From Phycisphaeraceae bacterium (GTDB lineage Bacteria; Planctomycetota; Phycisphaerae; Phycisphaerales; Phycisphaeraceae), in the NCBI GenBank assembly GCA_020851465.1, contig JADZCR010000002.1:186001-250000 (forward strand): a stretch of DNA of 64,000 nucleotides. Direction: 5' to 3'. Position 1 is the first letter of the stretch. Each line of letters starts with the position of its first letter. Below, one piece after another: positions 31,678 through 59,921 of the stretch. A program made the translations under genes and the position numbers. The notes beneath the pieces were generated by a model that did not search any database, was not told the DNA's origin, and was given only the letters and a program-made list of their open reading frames with translations.

Positions 31678-33126
31678 TTGGACGAAAGCCAGCAAAATTT
31701 TGAGCGGACCCGTCGGGAGCACTGGGATCGCGTCGCCGCCGGCCGACGGGGGCTGAAGGTCAATGGCTACTATCACCGCCGTTTGAACAAAATCTACCGT
31801 CACCTCATCGCGCCGGGTCAGCGTGTGCTCGAAGTCGGTTGCGGTAAGGGTGACCTCCTGGCAGCAGTCAAGCCGTCATACGGCATGGGGATCGATTTTT
31901 CCGAACGAATGATCCAACAGGCCGCAGCCGCACATCCTCAGTTGCGGTTCCTCATCGCCGATGCCCACTGCTTCGCGCTCAACGAGACATTCGACGCCAT
32001 CATTTTGTCGGACATCGTCAACGATCTCTGGGATGTGCAGACCGTGCTGGAACGACTCCGGCCAATGACCCACGACCGCACCCGGATCATTCTCAATTTC
32101 TTCAGTCGCCTCTGGGAACTGCCTCTCCGCGCCGCCCGCCGGCTGCGTCTGGCGAATCCGGCGTGTGAACAGAACTGGCTGACGACCGACGACCTGCGCG
32201 GCCTGCTCACGCTCGCCGGCTTTGAAACTTTCCGCTCCTGGAGCGAGATCATATGGCCAGTCACTACGCCCGGTCTCGACGCACTGGCGAACCGCTACAT
32301 CGCCCGGCTCTGGCCGTTTCATCTGTCCGCGCTGACTAACTTCATCGTCGCCCGGCCGGCGGACTGCGCCGCATCCACCCGGCAAACCGCAGCACCATCA
32401 GGCGACGCACCCAGCGTCTCCATCATCGTGCCGGCACGCAACGAAGCGGGAAACATCGCTGCGATCATGGCACGCACACCGGAGATCGGACGCGGTACAG
32501 AGTTGATCTTCGTCGAAGGGCATTCGAGCGACGACACCTACCGCACGATCGAGCGCGTGATGGCTGAAAATCCGCAGCGGCGATGCCGACTGTTTCGTCA
32601 GACAGGCAAGGGTAAAGGCGACGCAGTGCGTCTGGGATTTGAGCAGGCGACGGGCGAGGTTCTGATGATTCTGGACGCGGATCTGACCGTACCGCCGGAG
32701 GATCTGCCGCGGTTTTACGAGGCCGTCGCAACGGGTAAGGCCGACTTCGCCAACGGCGTGCGGCTGGTGTACCCGATGGAAAAGCAGGCGATGCGTTTTC
32801 TCAACCTGCTGGGTAACAAATTTTTCAGCCTCGCGTTTTCATGGCTGCTCGGCCAGCCGATCAAGGACACACTCTGCGGCACCAAAGTGCTCCGCCGCAC
32901 CGACTACCAGAAAATCGCGGCAAACCGAGCCTATTTCGGTGATTTCGACCCCTTCGGTGATTTTGACCTGATCTTCGGCGCTGCGAAGCTGAACCTGAAA
33001 ATCGTGGACGTGCCGATCCGCTATCGAATGCGGACTTATGGCACAACCAATATCCAGCGCTTCCGACACGGCGTGCTGCTGCTGCGCATGACTGCGTTCG
33101 CGGCACGGCGGATCAAGTTCATCTGA
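31678..33126 (+). CDS. Fusion: SAM methyltransferase + DPM1-like family 2 glycosyltransferase
   Basis: A 482-residue two-domain protein. Residues 1-230 are a class I methyltransferase (VLEVGCGKGDLLAAV at 50-64, GIDFSERMI, AIILSDIVNDL). Residues 246-482 are a GT2 glycosyltransferase with VSIIVPARNEAGNIAAI, a lysine/glycine loop TGKGKGDAVRLGF, the metal motif DAD at 333-335, and KDTLCGTKVLRR. This set is close to polyprenyl-phosphate mannose/glucose synthases (dolichol-phosphate mannose synthase type). A C-terminal FRHGVLLLRMTAF is compatible with membrane association. It starts at TTG 31678. The neighbours are two TMTC-like proteins that would use such a lipid-linked sugar. Confidence 0.85.
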   Translation: MDESQQNFERTRREHWDRVAAGRRGLKVNGYYHRRLNKIYRHLIAPGQRVLEVGCGKGDLLAAVKPSYGMGIDFSERMIQQAAAAHPQLRFLIADAHCFALNETFDAIILSDIVNDLWDVQTVLERLRPMTHDRTRIILNFFSRLWELPLRAARRLRLANPACEQNWLTTDDLRGLLTLAGFETFRSWSEIIWPVTTPGLDALANRYIARLWPFHLSALTNFIVARPADCAASTRQTAAPSGDAPSVSIIVPARNEAGNIAAIMARTPEIGRGTELIFVEGHSSDDTYRTIERVMAENPQRRCRLFRQTGKGKGDAVRLGFEQATGEVLMILDADLTVPPEDLPRFYEAVATGKADFANGVRLVYPMEKQAMRFLNLLGNKFFSLAFSWLLGQPIKDTLCGTKVLRRTDYQKIAANRAYFGDFDPFGDFDLIFGAAKLNLKIVDVPIRYRMRTYGTTNIQRFRHGVLLLRMTAFAARRIKFI

Positions 33127-33146
33127 GGTTCAAACCGACGCAGACA

Positions 33147-35405
33147 TCAAGGCGCGGACTTCTCCGCCGGATGGCTTGTCGGTTGGGTCGCAGCGGCGCG
33201 GCGGTCGCGCAGCTTGCGCGCCAGCTCCAGTTTCTGAGCCGTCACTTGCAGCGTGTGGTCAAGCTCCAGTGCCTTCTCAAAATGGATGATGGCTTCGTCG
33301 AACTGATTGAGCACCGCCAAAGCTCCCCCGTATTTGTCATGCACTATTGCGTTGTCGGGTTCCTCATTCAGCGCGCTTCGATACGCATCGGCGGCGGCGG
33401 CAGTGCGGCCCAATTGCAGGTACGCATCGCCCAGCAGGACGTACCCAGCGAAGAGATGCGGCTTGTAATGGACCGCCTGACGAAAATGTCCGACGGCGTT
33501 ACCCAAATCTCCCTCGATCGCCAGCAACGAGCCAAGCCCCAGATGCGCATCGGCAAAGGACGGGTTGATCTCCAGCGTCCGCTTGAAGTGTTCACGAGCC
33601 TCGGCGAGCTTGCCCTCGACCGCCAGGGCCGTCCCCAGATTGTTGTGCGCACCGGCCATGTCCGGCATGATCGCCAGTGCCTGCTGATAGTAGCTGATCG
33701 CTTCTTCGATCTGCACATTGGGCTGCGTCGCGGCAGGTGAGGCGGCGAACTTCGGCGTCGCCCCGCCAAGCGTCTGGGCAAAAAGGGCTGCTCCCAGGCT
33801 GTTGAGCACCTTCGCGGATTTAGGGTTAATCCGCAATGCGTCCCGGTAATGCGCGATGGCCTGGGAATACTGCTTCCGGTTGACCGCCACCTCACCCAGC
33901 AGCCAATGCGTTTCGTAGTCGTTTGGCTTAAGCTCGAACGCGGCTTGCGCGGTTATGCTGGCCTTGTTCAGGTCGCCCAGCTCAATCCATGTCGTAGTCA
34001 GCGAGCGGAAGATGCGCCAGTCGCGCGGAGCCATCTCCAGTGCTTTGTGAAGGTATTGCAGCGCATCGTCATAGCGTTGCAGACCGCCATAAGTCGCGGC
34101 GAGATTCTGCAAGGCTGTGCCGCTGGTCGGTGACTTGCGAACCGCGTCTTCCCATAATGCCAGATCGGTGTCATACACCCGCGCCCGCCGTTCCGACGCC
34201 ACGGCCAGCACTGCGATGAGCAGGACCAGAAACACCGACACTCCGACCAGCAGCGACCTGCCGCATGAGGCGGCCTTGGCGCAGCTCGCCTGCTTGCGTT
34301 CCAGGATGCGGTATCCCCCCGCCACGACCAGCGCGGCAATTCCCGCCAGCGGGATGTACATCCGTCGCTCGGCGGCGATCTCCGACATGATCGGCAGCAC
34401 GCTCGATGTCGGCGCGAGGATGAAGAAAAACACCGCGCCGACAAATCCCGCGGGGGACTTTTTCCAGATCAAAACCACGGTGAGGGCAAAGAGTGCCGAC
34501 ATCGCAGCCAAGTATGGCCAGACACCCGCCAGCGACCGGGCGATGTGATTCGGATAGATGATCGTCAGCGGCTCCGGCCAGAAGGAGAGCCGCAGATACC
34601 ACAGCAGGATGCGGCTTTCGGTAGCCAGATACTGCCACCATGTGATGCCGTGAGAAAAACCCGTACTCGATTGACGGTGGCCCGAAAGGACGACCAGGAC
34701 GAGCAAGACCCAACTGGCGAAGATGCCGCCATAGAGGAGCTTTGATCGCCGCAGCGCTGCGACGAAGCCTCCGCTGACAAACGTCCGGTCATAGAGCCAG
34801 ATCAACAGCGGCGCGGCGACCATGATTTCCTTGCTGGCCATGCCCAGACAGCAGGCCGCGATGGCGGTCCATGTCCAGCCGACACTGCCCGCGTCTTCCC
34901 ACGCACGGATGGCTGCGTAGAGCGTCAGAAACAGGAAAAAGGCCGCCATCAGCTCGGTGCGCTGAGTGATGTAGATCACCGCTTCGGAGTTGAGCGGGTG
35001 CGCCAGCCAGAGGAGCGACACCCCGCCGGCGATGAGCAGGTCGCGTCCGTCGTGTCCCGACTCCAGAAACCGCAGCGTCCGCCGGACGATTCCAAATAGA
35101 ATCCAACCGCAAGCCAGATGCAGTAGAAAATTAACAGCGTGGTATGGCCAAACCCACAGCCCGTGAATCGCGTATTGAATGGCGAAAGTGGCATTGACCA
35201 GCGGTCGGCCGGTCATGGACGAGTCATTCGGCGGGCGCAGGCACACCGCGGGATTGAGGGAGCGGATCGTGGGGTTTTCCAGGAGTGAATCAAAATCGTC
35301 AAAGAACGGCGGCGCATCGAGCGACGGCAGGTAAACAACGCCGACCAGCAACGCGCTGAGTACCACCATCGCCGTAACGCATATGGATTGCTGCACTCGA
35401 GTCAA
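33147..35405 (-). CDS. TMTC-like multi-spanning GT-C protein with TPR tail (1)
   Basis: A 752-residue protein. Residues 1-410 hold about 9-11 membrane segments; residues 420-740 are about nine tetratricopeptide repeats (for example LQNLAATYGGLQRYDDALQY). Two signatures match the eukaryotic TMTC O-mannosyltransferase and bacterial relatives layout: acidic residues just after the first helix (PFFDDFDSLLENP, Asp36-Asp37), and HPLNSEAVIYITQRTELM at 136-153. Such GT-C enzymes take the sugar from a polyprenyl phosphate. The activity here is inferred. It is convergent with the DPM-like fusion gene, with 20 bp between the stops. The C-terminus is Ala/Thr/Pro-rich. Confidence 0.8.
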   Translation of the reverse strand: MTRVQQSICVTAMVVLSALLVGVVYLPSLDAPPFFDDFDSLLENPTIRSLNPAVCLRPPNDSSMTGRPLVNATFAIQYAIHGLWVWPYHAVNFLLHLACGWILFGIVRRTLRFLESGHDGRDLLIAGGVSLLWLAHPLNSEAVIYITQRTELMAAFFLFLTLYAAIRAWEDAGSVGWTWTAIAACCLGMASKEIMVAAPLLIWLYDRTFVSGGFVAALRRSKLLYGGIFASWVLLVLVVLSGHRQSSTGFSHGITWWQYLATESRILLWYLRLSFWPEPLTIIYPNHIARSLAGVWPYLAAMSALFALTVVLIWKKSPAGFVGAVFFFILAPTSSVLPIMSEIAAERRMYIPLAGIAALVVAGGYRILERKQASCAKAASCGRSLLVGVSVFLVLLIAVLAVASERRARVYDTDLALWEDAVRKSPTSGTALQNLAATYGGLQRYDDALQYLHKALEMAPRDWRIFRSLTTTWIELGDLNKASITAQAAFELKPNDYETHWLLGEVAVNRKQYSQAIAHYRDALRINPKSAKVLNSLGAALFAQTLGGATPKFAASPAATQPNVQIEEAISYYQQALAIMPDMAGAHNNLGTALAVEGKLAEAREHFKRTLEINPSFADAHLGLGSLLAIEGDLGNAVGHFRQAVHYKPHLFAGYVLLGDAYLQLGRTAAAADAYRSALNEEPDNAIVHDKYGGALAVLNQFDEAIIHFEKALELDHTLQVTAQKLELARKLRDRRAAATQPTSHPAEKSAP

Positions 35406-35490
35406 CGCATGAATCTCCGCTGCTTCGCCTGCTCAGTTTTTGATTCACGATCAGCTATTACGTAAGCTTACCGAAATAGTCAGGACGAGC

Positions 35491-36279
35491 ATGTCCAGCA
35501 CCACCAATCCGCCAAATCTATCAGCACCAGGGCCGTCGAACAGCGGCTCAGCTCGCGGCGAGCATGAGATCGCCCACGGAAAATTTCTTGTTGAGCACGG
35601 AGCTGAGCTGACCTGGGGCTGGGGCACGCCTGCGGGTAAAGTCCGCGCCCAACGGCGGGCCGCGATCATCACCCGCAATGCCGGCCTTTCGCCGGGCAAG
35701 CTCGTGCTGGAAATCGGTTGCGGCACGGGTCTGTTCACCGAGGCCTTCGCCCAAAGCGGCGCGACCATCGTCGCTGTCGATATTTCCGACGACCTGCTCC
35801 GGCTGGCGCAGCAGAGGGGCCTGCCGGCTGACCGCGTCCGTTTCGTCTGCAAGTCTTTCGAGGACTGCGCTCTCGACGGCCCGTTCGACGCGATCGTCGG
35901 CTCGTCCGTGCTGCACCATCTGGAGGTCGAGCGTTCGCTGAGCAAGTGCCTGTCGCTGCTCAAGCCGGGCGGGACATTCAGCTTCGCCGAGCCGAACATG
36001 CTCAATCCGCAGATTTTCCTGCAAAAAAACGTAGGGTGGATCAAGAAACTCGTCGGCGACTCGCCGGATGAAACCGCATTCGTCGCCGGGCGGCTGGTGA
36101 AACTGCTGACCCGCATCGGTTTCACGGAGGCACGCGCCGAGGCTTTTGACTGGCTGCACCCGGCCACGCCCCGGCCTCTGATCCCGCTGGTCAGCGCGAT
36201 CGGTCGCGGCCTTGAGGCCACCCCCCTGCTGCGGCGATTTGCCGGTTCGTTGGCGATTTTTGCCCGGCGGCCGGCCTGA
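35491..36279 (+). CDS. Class I SAM-dependent methyltransferase
   Basis: A 262-residue protein with SAM motif I LVLEIGCGTGLFTEAFA (about 67-83), motif II VAVDISDDLLRLA, and SVLHHLEVERSL typical of Methyltransf_11/25 proteins. It has a disordered N-terminus of about 20 residues. ATG 35491 follows AGGA by six bases and is preferred to ATG 35440. It lies between the two TMTC-like genes, divergent from the first and 35 bp before the second, so it is probably in the same transcript as the latter. Substrate unknown; a glycolipid or sugar intermediate would fit the context. Confidence 0.85.
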   Translation: MSSTTNPPNLSAPGPSNSGSARGEHEIAHGKFLVEHGAELTWGWGTPAGKVRAQRRAAIITRNAGLSPGKLVLEIGCGTGLFTEAFAQSGATIVAVDISDDLLRLAQQRGLPADRVRFVCKSFEDCALDGPFDAIVGSSVLHHLEVERSLSKCLSLLKPGGTFSFAEPNMLNPQIFLQKNVGWIKKLVGDSPDETAFVAGRLVKLLTRIGFTEARAEAFDWLHPATPRPLIPLVSAIGRGLEATPLLRRFAGSLAIFARRPA

Positions 36280-36314
36280 GCACGAGTTCTGGACCAAGGC
36301 TCTGAGTACTTTCT

Positions 36315-38231
36315 ATGACCGCAAACCCGCCATCCCCGGATTTGACGCTAAACCCGCCGCCTGCCGGCGCGCTGCGCCACCTGCAAAAGCCCTGGGTCAT
36401 CAGCATCCTGCTCGTGCTGCTGACGCTCATCCCCTACGCGCAGATGCTTGGGCAGAATTTCGTCAACTATGACGACGACCTTTTCATCACCCGAAATCCG
36501 CACATCAATCACGGCCTGACGCGCGACGCGGTCAACTGGGCGTTCGGGTTTCAATCCGCCAGCCAGTATCACCCGCTGACGACGCTTTCCCACGCGCTGG
36601 ATTGTGAGGTTTTCGGGCTTAACCCCATCGGACCCAAGGCGGTCAACCTCACCCTCCACCTGGCGACGACCGTGCTGATCTTCCGGCTGGCCCTGATGAT
36701 GACCGGCCGCCTCTGGCCATGTGCCGTCCTCGCCCTGCTCTGCGGCATCCATCCCCTGCGCGTCGAAGCGGTCGCATGGATTGCCGAGCGGAAGGAAATG
36801 CTCAGCAATTTTTTCGGTGTCCTGACCATCATTTCCTACGTCTGGTACACACGACGGCGGAACATCGGCCGGTATCTGCTGATGCTCCTGCTCTACACGC
36901 TGACGCTCATGTCCAAGCCGATGCTGGTGACCATGCCGTTCATCCTGCTGCTGCTGGATTACCGCCCGCTGCGACGCTTTGACCTCACGCCGGTAATGGA
37001 ACTGCCCCGCAAGCTGCTATGGCTCGTTCTCGAAAAGCTGCCGATGTTCCCGTTGCTGATCGCGTCGTCCTACCTGACATGGCGGGTGGTGCAGGTGTCG
37101 GGCGCAGCCCACTCTCTCGAAGCGACGCCGGTCGCCTACCGACTGACCAACGTCATCATCGCCTACGGCTGGTACATCTACAAAACTTTCGTGCCGCTGA
37201 ACCTGACCTGTCTCTACCTGTTCGACCCCACATGGTCAGCATGGGAAGTCACCGCAGCCTCGGCGGCCTTTTTCACCCTGACCTATCTCGCCATCCGTTA
37301 CATTCGCAAGCTGCCCTATCTCTTCGTGGGCTGGTTCTTCTTCGTCGGAACCCTGGTTCCGGTCATCGGACTTGTCCAGGTCGGCGCACAGGCTTACGCG
37401 GATCGCTACTCCTACGTGGGGCAGATCGGCTTGTTCATCATGATTATCTGGGGCGCAGCTGACCTGATCCGGCGGCTGAGCATCAAGACCTCGCAACTCG
37501 TGCTGCTGCTCGGTGCGGTTGTCGTTGTCTGCCTCTGCGTGACCTGGCTTCAGGTCTCCTACTGGTACAACTCGAAGTCGCTCTTCACCCATGCAATCGA
37601 TGTCAATCCCAACAGCAGCACCGCTCATAACAACCTCGGCTCGATCTACCTGATCGAGGGCAACTACCAGAAAGCTGCGGAGGAGTTTTTCGCAGCGACC
37701 AAGATTTTCGCATATACGCCCGAAGCCTGGAACAACCTCGGACAGGTTTTCATCCTCAAGGGTGACTACGACAGCGCGATCGAAGTGCTGCGCGTCGCCT
37801 TTAACCAGAGACCAGACAACAAAATGGTTTTGACCAATCTTGGCATCGCCTTCCTCGGTAAAAACGACTTGGACAAAGCAGTCAATTTCCTTCAAAAGGC
37901 GATTCAGAGCGACCCCTTCTACGGGAATGCTCACTATTACATGGCTGTTGCGCTTAAATCTTTGGGCAGGTTCCCGGAGGCACGCGAGCAGGTGGCTCAG
38001 GCAATCAAGTTGCAGGAAACGCCGGAAGGCTGGACGTTGCTGGCGGATATTTACAGTGCCCAGGGAGATCGCGTCGCTGCGATGGAGGCCGTCAAAAATG
38101 CGATCCGGCTCAGTCCGAATTACGAGCCGGCAAAGATACGAATAGAGCGACTCAACCGCGGCGAACCCACCGAGCCGCCGCAGGCGACGACACGACCCGC
38201 CAGTCAACCAGCCACCCAGCCAAAACCGTAG
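36315..38231 (+). CDS. TMTC-like multi-spanning GT-C protein with TPR tail (2)
   Basis: A 638-residue relative of the protein encoded at 33147-35405. Residues 25-425 form about 10-11 membrane segments; residues 430-620 are about five TPR units (SSTAHNNLGSIYLIEGNYQK, AWNNLGQVFILKGDYDSA). The GT-C signatures are even clearer: FVNYDDDLFITRNPHI (Asp53-55), QYHPLTTLSHALD, and HPLRVEAVAWIAERKEML at 146-163. The tail is Thr/Pro/Ala-rich. The gene ends at the edge of the repeat-rich non-coding block. The role as a polyprenyl-phosphate-dependent protein or lipid glycosyltransferase is inferred from the signatures and the DPM-like neighbour. Confidence 0.82.
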   Translation: MTANPPSPDLTLNPPPAGALRHLQKPWVISILLVLLTLIPYAQMLGQNFVNYDDDLFITRNPHINHGLTRDAVNWAFGFQSASQYHPLTTLSHALDCEVFGLNPIGPKAVNLTLHLATTVLIFRLALMMTGRLWPCAVLALLCGIHPLRVEAVAWIAERKEMLSNFFGVLTIISYVWYTRRRNIGRYLLMLLLYTLTLMSKPMLVTMPFILLLLDYRPLRRFDLTPVMELPRKLLWLVLEKLPMFPLLIASSYLTWRVVQVSGAAHSLEATPVAYRLTNVIIAYGWYIYKTFVPLNLTCLYLFDPTWSAWEVTAASAAFFTLTYLAIRYIRKLPYLFVGWFFFVGTLVPVIGLVQVGAQAYADRYSYVGQIGLFIMIIWGAADLIRRLSIKTSQLVLLLGAVVVVCLCVTWLQVSYWYNSKSLFTHAIDVNPNSSTAHNNLGSIYLIEGNYQKAAEEFFAATKIFAYTPEAWNNLGQVFILKGDYDSAIEVLRVAFNQRPDNKMVLTNLGIAFLGKNDLDKAVNFLQKAIQSDPFYGNAHYYMAVALKSLGRFPEAREQVAQAIKLQETPEGWTLLADIYSAQGDRVAAMEAVKNAIRLSPNYEPAKIRIERLNRGEPTEPPQATTRPASQPATQPKP

Positions 38232-38305: not shown

Positions 38306-38762
38306 GCGGCTCGGCAGAGCAGACGGTTTGGCGGAAATCGGTTCAGATGCAGACGGTTCGGCAGCAGGAGCAGAGCAAAGCAAACGGCTCGGCAGAGCCT
38401 CGCCCTCCCATCAGGTAATCGTTGCCCTCCCACGAGGTCGTTGATAATTCCGGGAGAGCGAGGCGCACGCACACGGGAAAGAAATGACCCCGCGCACGGG
38501 AGAGCGAGGCTCCAGCCGAGCTTGTTCGTGCGTCCAACACAAACGGCTTGGCGGAAAACGGCTCGACGGAGTCTCGCCCTCCCAGACAGAATCGCCCTCC
38601 CGTGGGATCGTTGATGATTCGGGGAGAGCGATACGCGCGCACACGGGAAAGAAATGACCTCACGTACGGGAGAGCGAGGCTCCAGCCGCACGGGAGAGCG
38701 AGGCTCCAGCCGAGCTTGTTCGTGCGTCCAACACAGACGGCTCGGCAGAGCCTCGCCCTCCC
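38306..38762. repeat. REP/MITE-like inverted-repeat array
   Basis: Two tandem copies of an element with long imperfect terminal inverted repeats, plus a third left arm. Copy A spans 38387-38521: the left arm starts GCTCGGCAGAGCCTCGC (38387) and the right arm, 38498-38521, is nearly its reverse complement. Copy B spans 38561-38715, with an internal duplication of about 24 bp in its right arm. A lone left arm lies at 38740-38762. Left arms recur at spacings of 174 and 179 bp. Between the arms both copies share ACACGGGAAAGAAATGACC, and after the right arm CTTGTTCGTGCGTCCAACAC. Shorter ACGGYTYGGCRG relatives occur at 38306, 38323, 38353 and 38543. No transposase is nearby. Confidence 0.85.
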
Positions 38763-38858: not shown

Positions 38859-38870
38859 CTTCTAGATTTT

Positions 38871-39098
38871 CAGACATTTTCAAACGTCTTCAGACATCTT
38901 CAACATCATCTTCGGACATTCTCAAATATCCTCAGACTTCTTCGGACATCCTTGGATATCCTCGGTCATCCTTGAACATCCTCAAACATCCTCTGACTTC
39001 TTCGGACATCCTTGGATACCCTTGAACATCCTCTGATATTCTCAGGCATCCTCGGACATCCTCAGACATTCTCTGACATCTTCAGACGTTTTCAGACC
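38871..39098. repeat. 10-bp tandem repeat, about 23 degenerate units
   Basis: The plus-strand consensus is about CRGACATCYT, with unit length 10 bp almost throughout; one unit near 38901 is 12 bp. Typical units are CAGACATCTT, CGGACATCCT, TGGATATCCT and TGAACATCCT. A longer block, CTTCTTCGGACATCCTTGG, occurs twice, showing higher-order duplication. On the minus strand, the sense of the prepilin transcript, the unit reads AGGATGTCYG. It lies between the prepilin stop codon and its terminator. Confidence 0.9.
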
Positions 39099-39112: not shown

Positions 39113-39880
39113 TCAGTTACCTCGGACGAACAGCGCGTTGTAGCCGGCGACGGTGCCGGTGGCGGTGTCGTTGTTGAAGAGGTAGTCATCGCCGGTGTTG
39201 GTGGTGTTGGCGTAGCGGGTCGGGCTGACCTTGGCGGTGGTGATGAACTGGCTGGAGTTATCACCGAACACCACGCTGCCGCGCCAATCGCTGGTGACAG
39301 TCGTCCAGATGCTCTGGGCAACCGAGGTCACGTTGGTCGCGTCGGTCATGACGCGGTCACCCATGATCAGAGCCTGCGAGTTGTTGGTGGTCTTCCACTC
39401 AGCCATGTGGCCGCCTTCGAGCGAGGAGGTGGTGCCCAAGGAGAGCATGGCGTAGGAGTAACCCTGAGTCGCCGTGCCGCTCATGGCGACGTTCACACCC
39501 GAGTTCGCCGTCTTGATGTTGGCGGTGTCGGTCTCGCCCGGGGAGATGCAGTAGTTGCTGGTGAAGTAGTTACCGTTGAGCAGTTGGGCGATACGGTTGG
39601 AGACCGCAAAGCCGTTACCCGCTGCACCGTACGAGGTCGAGGTGGTGGCGAGTGAGGCCACCGAGGCGCCCGTGCCGTCGAGGCCGGGCATGTACTCGTT
39701 GTTACCGCTGGCGAACATCACCATACCCTGGTGGATGCCGCGGACCTGCGTGCTGTTTTGCATCTGCCGAGCCGTACGGCGGGCAGCGCTCAGAGCAGGC
39801 AGGAGGATGCCGATGAGCAGCGCGATGATTGAAATAACCACGAGCAGCTCGATCAGTGTGAAGCCCTTCATCTTTCGCAT
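39113..39880 (-). CDS. Type IV pilin/pseudopilin-like protein with N-terminal methylation motif
   Basis: A 255-residue secreted or surface subunit. The N-terminus MRKMKGFTLIELLVVISIIA is a canonical class III prepilin signal: a short basic leader, the Gly-Phe cleavage site and Glu at +5, then a hydrophobic helix to about residue 35. The C-terminal globular part is rich in Gly, Thr, Ser and Asn and resembles the planctomycete prepilin-type proteins with H-x9-DG-like tails only in general style. It is processed by a prepilin peptidase not in the window. The gene stands alone, with a long leader and a 3' repeat array. Confidence 0.88.
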   Translation of the reverse strand: MRKMKGFTLIELLVVISIIALLIGILLPALSAARRTARQMQNSTQVRGIHQGMVMFASGNNEYMPGLDGTGASVASLATTSTSYGAAGNGFAVSNRIAQLLNGNYFTSNYCISPGETDTANIKTANSGVNVAMSGTATQGYSYAMLSLGTTSSLEGGHMAEWKTTNNSQALIMGDRVMTDATNVTSVAQSIWTTVTSDWRGSVVFGDNSSQFITTAKVSPTRYANTTNTGDDYLFNNDTATGTVAGYNALFVRGN

Positions 39881-59150: not shown

Positions 59151-59921
59151 TTACTCTTCAGAATCACAATTGGCGCACGCGGGTTCAGCCTGCGGAAATT
59201 TATCGGGAAACTTCGCCAGCTCACGCTCAAACACCTGAGTGTAGTGGGCCAGGCGATGGTCAGGATTGTCCAGCGATCCGCCGAAACTGCGATTCGGGTC
59301 GTTGTAAATCAGATCGATCGGCAGCTCGGTTATGCGCAAACCATTCGCAACTGCCTGTACCCAGAATTGAAGCGGGAATGCGTAGCCGGTCTCGTCAAGC
59401 GTAAGACGGCGGAGTGCTTTGACTCGGTAGGCCTTGAAACCACAGAACGCATCAGTGAGCCGCAGACCCAGACGGTCATTGACCATAGCTGTGATCTTGC
59501 GATTGATCGCACGGCGATCCGTCGGCGCAACAGTCACAGCCGACTCGACGGTCATGTATCGGCTGCCGCTGATCACATCCGCGCCATTCTCCCGGTCGTT
59601 CTGTGCCTGCTGAATGGCAGCATGGAAATCCGGCAGGCTCGCGGGTTGATGCTGCTCGTCGCAGTCCATGGTGATCAGCCAGTCGTAGCAATAGCATTGA
59701 CAGGTCGCCCATCGAAACGCAGCGATCATTGACTGGCCGTATCCGCGGTTGCGGGCATGTCTCACGACTTCAACGGGTTGCTTGGCCAGCAGTAACGGCG
59801 TCTCATCGGTGGAGCCGTCATCAATGACCAAAATGTCGCGGGCATAACGGCGCACCTCATCGAGAACCTTGGTGACGTGCTTTTGCTCGTTATAAACGGG
59901 AATTGCCAGGAGAGTACGCAT
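59151..59921 (-). CDS. Family 2 glycosyltransferase, DPM/polyprenyl-glycosyltransferase-like
   Basis: A 256-residue GT2 enzyme: LLAIPVYNEQKHVTKVLDEV at the N-terminus, LVIDDGSTDETPLLL with its DDGS motif, RNRGYGQSMIAAF, the DCDEQHQPAS metal-binding site, and DVISGSRYM. It has no C-terminal membrane helix, so it may transfer a sugar to polyprenyl phosphate at the membrane surface. The start ATG 59921 follows AAGGA by eight bases. It lies about 145 bp downstream of rsmA on the same strand. Confidence 0.9.
   Translation of the reverse strand: MRTLLAIPVYNEQKHVTKVLDEVRRYARDILVIDDGSTDETPLLLAKQPVEVVRHARNRGYGQSMIAAFRWATCQCYCYDWLITMDCDEQHQPASLPDFHAAIQQAQNDRENGADVISGSRYMTVESAVTVAPTDRRAINRKITAMVNDRLGLRLTDAFCGFKAYRVKALRRLTLDETGYAFPLQFWVQAVANGLRITELPIDLIYNDPNRSFGGSLDNPDHRLAHYTQVFERELAKFPDKFPQAEPACANCDSEE

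Follow-up and report, generated by a model that had tools for sequence, protein, structure and literature searches.

Do four neighbouring genes in the genome of a Phycisphaeraceae bacterium encode a protein O-glycosylation system of the type operated in animals by the TMTC proteins? The genes lie at 31678-38231 of a 64,000-nucleotide stretch of contig JADZCR010000002.1 (hereafter, the window), where a sequence-only reading had placed a possible locus of this kind, made up of a glycosyltransferase family 2 (GT2) domain fused to a methyltransferase (P0001), two multi-spanning proteins ending in tetratricopeptide repeats (TPRs; P0002 and P0004, referred to below as A and B), and a further methyltransferase (P0003). 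Here, we favour with modest confidence the view that A and B are periplasm-facing GT-C transferases, which use a polyprenyl-phosphate-sugar donor, the likeliest acceptors being membrane or exported proteins that the TPRs hold. The computed basis of this view consists of the GT-C fold and topology of both proteins, the conservation in their extracytoplasmic loops (EL) of an acidic pair (EL1), R-x-E (EL2), Lys (EL3), and Arg-Tyr (EL5), a relation to proteins with sub-cut-off matches to the TMTC model PF08409, and the adjacency of GT2 genes to members of the family in related genomes.

All four open reading frames (ORFs), which were called mechanically, were confirmed at the positions given earlier and have a coding-like codon-position GC content (GC3 0.73-0.77), and the features attributed to the two multi-spanning proteins were recovered. 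A occupies 33147-35405 on the minus strand and B occupies 36315-38231 on the plus strand; in each, a GT-C membrane domain (residues 1-413, 34167-35405, in A; residues 1-420, 36315-37574, in B) is followed by a C-terminal TPR region (residues ~415-732, 33210-34163, and residues ~423-609, 37581-38141, respectively) that is predicted to be extracytoplasmic. The acidic motifs FFDDFD and NYDDDL are both present, and a six-frame search of the window gives just two instances of the signature HPxxxEAVxxIxxRxE, one in A and the other in B. The two proteins are true homologues, their membrane domains aligning profile to profile at 99.9% and E 7e-34 (hhalign). Across the wider family, at least three TPRs were detected in 110/121 A-type and 38/42 B-type ORFs.

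AlphaFold2 models built on alignments of bacterial relatives were confident for both proteins (pLDDT 92.2 and pTM 0.93 for A; pLDDT 83.7 and pTM 0.86 for B). When these were compared with the PDB using Foldseek, every match with a probability of at least 0.8 was a GT-C enzyme or the GT-C-fold protein PIG-U, the enzymes including ArnT, STT3/OST, PglB, AglB, ALG12, EmbA/B, Pmt1/2/4, and DPY19. The best single match of A was ArnT (5.6e-4), with PIG-U also among its matches, and the best matches of B were the protein glycosyltransferases PglB/STT3. Judged by these models, A and B have the GT-C fold. Nothing pointed to an unrelated transporter family or to an O-antigen polymerase family, membership of which the sequence-only reading had named as incompatible with its proposal: the membrane domains have no Pfam match, and no WaaL, Wzy, or PglL structure is among the PDB fold matches listed. 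Both models contain 11 membrane helices, and the positive-inside charge of the loops fits 11 helices with the conserved loops EL1-EL5 and the TPR arm outside, the predicted topology being N-terminus inside, 11 transmembrane helices, and TPRs outside. With ArnT, PMT, and STT3-PglB, A and B share the fold and the position of the catalytic loops (Foldseek), but they differ in lacking any detectable sequence match to solved structures, a PDB sequence profile search with A and B having returned zero matches, and in carrying a TPR arm that is absent from those enzymes.

A more specific likeness is to animal TMTC1-4 (CAZy GT105), the cadherin protein O-mannosyltransferases, with which A and B share the N-terminal 11-helix GT-C domain, the long extracytoplasmic C-terminal TPR arm, and a set of loop residues: Asp-Asp and R/H-P in EL1, R-x-D/E in EL2, Lys in EL3, and Arg...Tyr in EL5. 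We set the published TMTC motifs M1-M7 (PMC7801869) against the residues conserved among 70 A-type and 27 B-type proteins, eukaryotic TMTCs entering this comparison only through the published motifs and the Pfam model PF08409 (TMTC_DUF1736). The motif residues are D36 D37 and R67 P68 (EL1), R149xE151 (EL2), K192 E193 (EL3), and E346xR348xY350 (EL5) in A, and D53 D54, H86 P87, R159xE161, K201 (followed by Pro, not Glu), and D363R364xxY367 in B. The EL1 acidic pairs D36/D37 and D53/D54 are 98-100% conserved, as are D36, RP, RxE, KE, and ExRxY among A-type proteins, while DD, P-x-T, K, and DRxxY reach 96-100% among B-type proteins. Motifs M2 (...YRP, EL1) and M3 (RxD, EL2) appear in the A-type as GRP (91-100%) and RxE (100%), the match in the B-type being partial (W/Y-HP, with His for Arg, and R-K-D/E). 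For M4, KE(T/Q)xxT, KE is present in 100% of A-type proteins; the B-type retains Lys (100%) and the distal Thr, with Glu replaced by Pro in 88%. The ERxxY of M7 (EL5) corresponds to DRxxY in 100% of B-type proteins and to ExRxY, with Arg one position further, in 100% of the A-type.

The connection to TMTC proper runs through a third clade, C. A search of 150 genomes of the class with PF08409 yielded 0 matches above cut-off, and nine of the ten best sub-cut-off matches fell in relatives of A and B. The ORFs concerned, which the profiles of A and B match at E 1e-18 to 9e-46, represent clade C; their sub-cut-off PF08409 matches reach down to 3.8e-5, their motifs are nearly complete (FDD, LYRPLT, GRAEL, SKE, LSxDY, ERxxY), and the clade C profile is similar to A at E 6e-45 and to B at E 3e-36. 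In the tree, A, B, and C each form one fully supported clade. Classifying A and B as TMTC-like by homology and layout thus has good support. Of the original proposal, the GT-C fold, the TMTC-like motifs, the topology, and the TPR layout are borne out, and the wider bacterial family shows a sub-cut-off link to PF08409. Full-length TMTC homologues in prokaryotes, e.g., AMJ42_05695 (Deltaproteobacteria DG_8), were already noted in 2021 (PMC7801869). Like A and B, they carry TPRs after a GT-C domain and belong to an uncharacterised bacterium, a likeness drawn from description and not from sequence, as only their existence was reported there. The clades, the copy numbers, and the linkage to GT2 and methyltransferase genes are described here.

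Is a donor synthase found beside such genes? We searched all 51 genomes of the family to which the window belongs and read 60 loci, using a home-made GT2 profile seeded only from the P0001 fusion family and one unlinked GT2 of the window, the window itself not being counted. Eight GT2s were at most 1.5 kb away from a TMTC-like gene (177 kb of sequence), a single one was found between 1.5 and 3 kb, and the 3-8 kb range (390 kb) contained none, giving p 9e-5, or 9e-4 after the repeats of one genus were collapsed; these values are somewhat flattering, because the adjacency hypothesis came from two of the counted loci (L098 and L110). Genomes beyond the family show this trend only weakly (5 vs 1, p 0.011), one of the five being the same record as a family locus. 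The nearest relatives of this A and this B in the tree belong to two genomes of the same family, G143 and G053, where the operons have the gene orders flippase-methyltransferase-GT2-A-A and methyltransferase-GT2-B, respectively, each in one direction. At two further loci, L300 and L329, GT2-methyltransferase is convergent with a TMTC-like gene, which is the geometry of P0001 and A. With the exception of L305, the neighbouring GT2s best match AglJ, PpgS, dolichyl-P-hexose, ArnC, or PgfS models, all below cut-off. These data support a linkage of polyprenyl-phosphate-sugar-synthase-like GT2s to TMTC-like genes in the family, for a minority of copies.

In P0001 itself (31678-33126, plus strand), a GT2 domain (residues ~247-469) comes after a methyltransferase domain (residues ~46-183); that the two are fused had been described before. 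The GT2 domain matches Pfam PF00535 at 5e-21, its best PDB relative is the dolichol-phosphate-mannose synthase (DPMS) 5mlz (E 5e-15), and its best NCBIfam model is archaeal AglJ (4e-30, below cut-off). By sequence, the GT2 domain is related to polyprenyl-phosphate-sugar synthases of the DPMS/AglJ class, but P0001 differs from these in falling below the AglJ cut-off, in having no C-terminal or other membrane helices, and in being fused to a methyltransferase. Orthologous fusions occur in 36/150 class genomes and thus constitute a conserved family. At three loci of this family (L070, L071, and L073) trigger factor immediately precedes the fusion gene, which in some of them is followed by a gene with weak likeness to GSDH (glucose/sorbosone dehydrogenase). 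The further methyltransferase, P0003 (35440-36279, plus strand; likelier start, the ATG at 35491), is of class I and S-adenosylmethionine-dependent and lies 35 bp upstream of B. We ruled it out as a regular partner, as its single clear orthologue among the 150 genomes adjoins a P0001 orthologue. In a distant member of the class, a PF02366 (PMT) protein, a P0003 orthologue, and a P0001 orthologue stand in a row (L078, 6368-10799). A separate GT2 of the window (59151-59921, minus strand) resembles PpgS, a polyprenyl-phospho-N-acetylgalactosamine synthase (6e-26, below cut-off), and is another possible donor synthase.

In the mechanism that we envisage, a cytoplasmic GT2 of the DPMS/AglJ type, plausibly P0001, would load a sugar onto polyprenyl phosphate, and the lipid-linked sugar would be flipped to the outer face of the inner membrane. 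There, A or B would bind it in the GT-C cavity by means of the EL1 Asp pair, the EL3 Lys, and the EL5 Arg, and would pass a single sugar on to an acceptor that the TPR arm presents outside the cytoplasm; presentation of this kind has been proposed for TMTC and cadherins (PMC11292533). A possible role of the methyltransferases (the N-terminal domain of P0001, and P0003) is the decoration of the sugar or of the product. We infer catalysis, the donor, a protein acceptor and its choice by the TPRs, the identity of the sugar and its linkage, and the role of the methyltransferases, and likewise that P0001 is the actual partner feeding A and B. A comparable pairing exists in Streptococcus mutans, in which the GT2 PgfS and the PMT_2-type membrane protein PgfM1 modify exported proteins (PMC5856776); the likeness is that a GT2 works together with a membrane protein predicted to be of GT-C type in glycosylating surface proteins. 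The PgfS model is matched, below its cut-off, by the GT2 at L329 (1.7e-71). PgfM1 belongs to the PMT_2 subfamily, and no TPR arm is mentioned for it in the passages cited, whereas A and B carry one.

A number of observations weigh against this reading, beginning with the genomic context. P0001 and A are convergent with 20 bp between them, and A is divergent from P0003, strands on which the sequence-only reading was silent; as A lies on the minus strand in this arrangement, an operon could comprise P0003 and B at most, and the four genes are not one operon, A not being co-transcribed with the rest. Across the 150 class genomes, the fusion co-occurs with A in 5 genomes (6.0 expected) and with B in 7 (7.4 expected), it is found in only 1/9 genomes carrying both, and none of 19 other fusion loci of the class has A or B within ~9 kb. 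The fusion is thus independent of A and B across the class and is ruled out as their universal partner, and this counts against P0001 as a dedicated donor synthase by the sequence-only reading's own standard, which was genomic co-occurrence of the pair with the fusion. As a single locus, therefore, the set stands only in part: this exact fusion is unassociated with A and B, but synthase-like GT2s lie beside TMTC-like genes in the family much more frequently than expected by chance. Even so, ~85-90% of TMTC-like genes, those of the family included, lack any GT2 at a distance of up to 3 kb. Relatives of A and B are mostly orphan genes among unrelated ones, and a Pfam census of their neighbours revealed neither a recurrent family nor a consistently linked acceptor gene.

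The proteins themselves add to these points. The membrane parts of A and B fall outside all Pfam families, no GT-C model matches, and PF08409 matches neither protein. Motif M5, D-W in EL4, is D-Y in 85% of A-type proteins and I283-Y284 in P0002 itself, and B has no Asp at this position. The EL3 Glu and the EL4 Asp were assigned to the metal in docking models (PMC7801869); to judge by the alignments, B has neither, and the A of this genome lacks the latter. Neither protein is a canonical TMTC, as both lack the M5 Asp and any PF08409 match. Compared with animal TMTC1-4, both fall in clades separate from C and have no DUF1736 match, B departs further in its missing KE Glu and EL4 Asp, and this A in its missing EL4 Asp and in having ExRxY rather than ERxxY. 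Unlike the animal enzymes, A and B have no cadherin substrates.

The genomic points lend real weight, though short of an even chance, to the explanation that the neighbourhood arose by chance, with A and B as stand-alone enzymes drawing on a general donor pool, and the fusion and P0003 serving another pathway. Besides the missing class-wide association and the opposite strand of A, this would account for the occurrence of the fusion elsewhere beside trigger factor, DUF2142, or methyltransferase genes, and of A and B relatives mostly among housekeeping genes. It fits less well with an adjacency of GT2s, with or without a methyltransferase, to TMTC-like genes of the family that is well above the local background, with the recurrence of convergent GT2-methyltransferase/TMTC layouts (L300, L329), or with the genome G128, where adjacent P0003 and P0001 orthologues follow a PF02366 GT-C gene.

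It is unlikely, in our estimation, that A and B are GT-C transferases acting on a glycan or lipid, as in ArnT-like modification of lipid A or decoration of exopolysaccharide or lipopolysaccharide, with the TPRs tethering them to an export or assembly machine. ArnT is the best single PDB match of A, one operon in the family carries a Polysacc_synt_3 flippase, and TPRs are common in polysaccharide export systems (PrsT, PgaA, and BcsC matches). However, a GT-C domain with a long TPR arm is the TMTC layout, the best matches of B are to protein glycosyltransferases, and the neighbour census found no consistently linked exopolysaccharide or lipopolysaccharide cluster. It seems quite improbable that either protein or both, but chiefly B, serve as non-catalytic substrate-binding or scaffold proteins. 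In favour of this, nearly the entire B clade is without the EL3 Glu and the EL4 Asp, and the fold matches of A include PIG-U, described as non-enzymatic despite its GT-C fold (PMC7801869). Against it, the EL1 Asp pair, the EL3 Lys, and the EL5 Arg do not vary in B, whereas a decayed active site would be expected to do so.

If A and B are TMTC-type protein glycosyltransferases, as we favour, protein O-glycosylation would extend to planctomycetes, on whose glycoproteomics we found no paper in the open-access literature searched. TMTCs are among the newest protein O-mannosyltransferases, and no solved TMTC structure was among the fold or sequence matches. A bacterial family that has the TMTC layout, splits into three deep clades, and is present in many copies in certain genomes could provide tractable models of acceptor choice by TPRs; A and B offer a concrete bacterial version of TMTC, and the GT2 adjacency a concrete donor hypothesis. 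In a broader and rather doubtful scenario, Phycisphaerae, along with Verrucomicrobiota, Myxococcota, and others, would practise TMTC-type protein O-glycosylation with many TPR-armed GT-C enzymes, each with its own acceptors, and shared polyprenyl-phosphate-sugar donors, some of them methylated by methyltransferase-GT2 fusions, and animal TMTCs would derive from this bacterial pool.

The TMTC-like family is widespread in bacteria and uncharacterised there. The 80 named A-type loci come from Planctomycetota, Verrucomicrobiota, Myxococcota, Acidobacteriota, Omnitrophota, and Rokubacteria, most genomes being metagenome-assembled (MAGs) and loci often being cut by contig ends. At one of the 80, in an Opitutae MAG (L177, 18202), a fusion orthologue lies ~6 kb from the A-type gene. 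B-type genes form tandem arrays and large expansions (L101, L119, and L103; genomes G128, G021, G116, and G180), G128 alone having as many as 36 first-look candidates. Homologues of B in viral contigs were rejected, the one contig concerned being probably bacterial. The present genome has a third copy, of A-type, divergent from a pilM-like operon (L061, 9753-11912, C3), and a fourth that belongs to clade C, the most TMTC-like clade (L224, 7178-8977, C6), and immediately follows an endonuclease-III-like gene, with an argC-like gene alongside.

In the window, a prepilin-type protein (MRKMKGFTLIELLVV...) is encoded at 39113-39880 on the minus strand, 0.9 kb from B, and is a possible exported acceptor. 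Pilins and pseudopilins as a class were discarded as acceptors: one is near B and a pilM-like operon is by the third copy, yet pilin signatures are rare near relatives. Also downstream of B is an imperfect array of ~10-bp units (TCCTCAGACA-like) at 38869-39097 and at 38424-38749, in which periods of 20/30/60 bp are nested; direct repeats that are longer, up to 95 nt, occur there as well.

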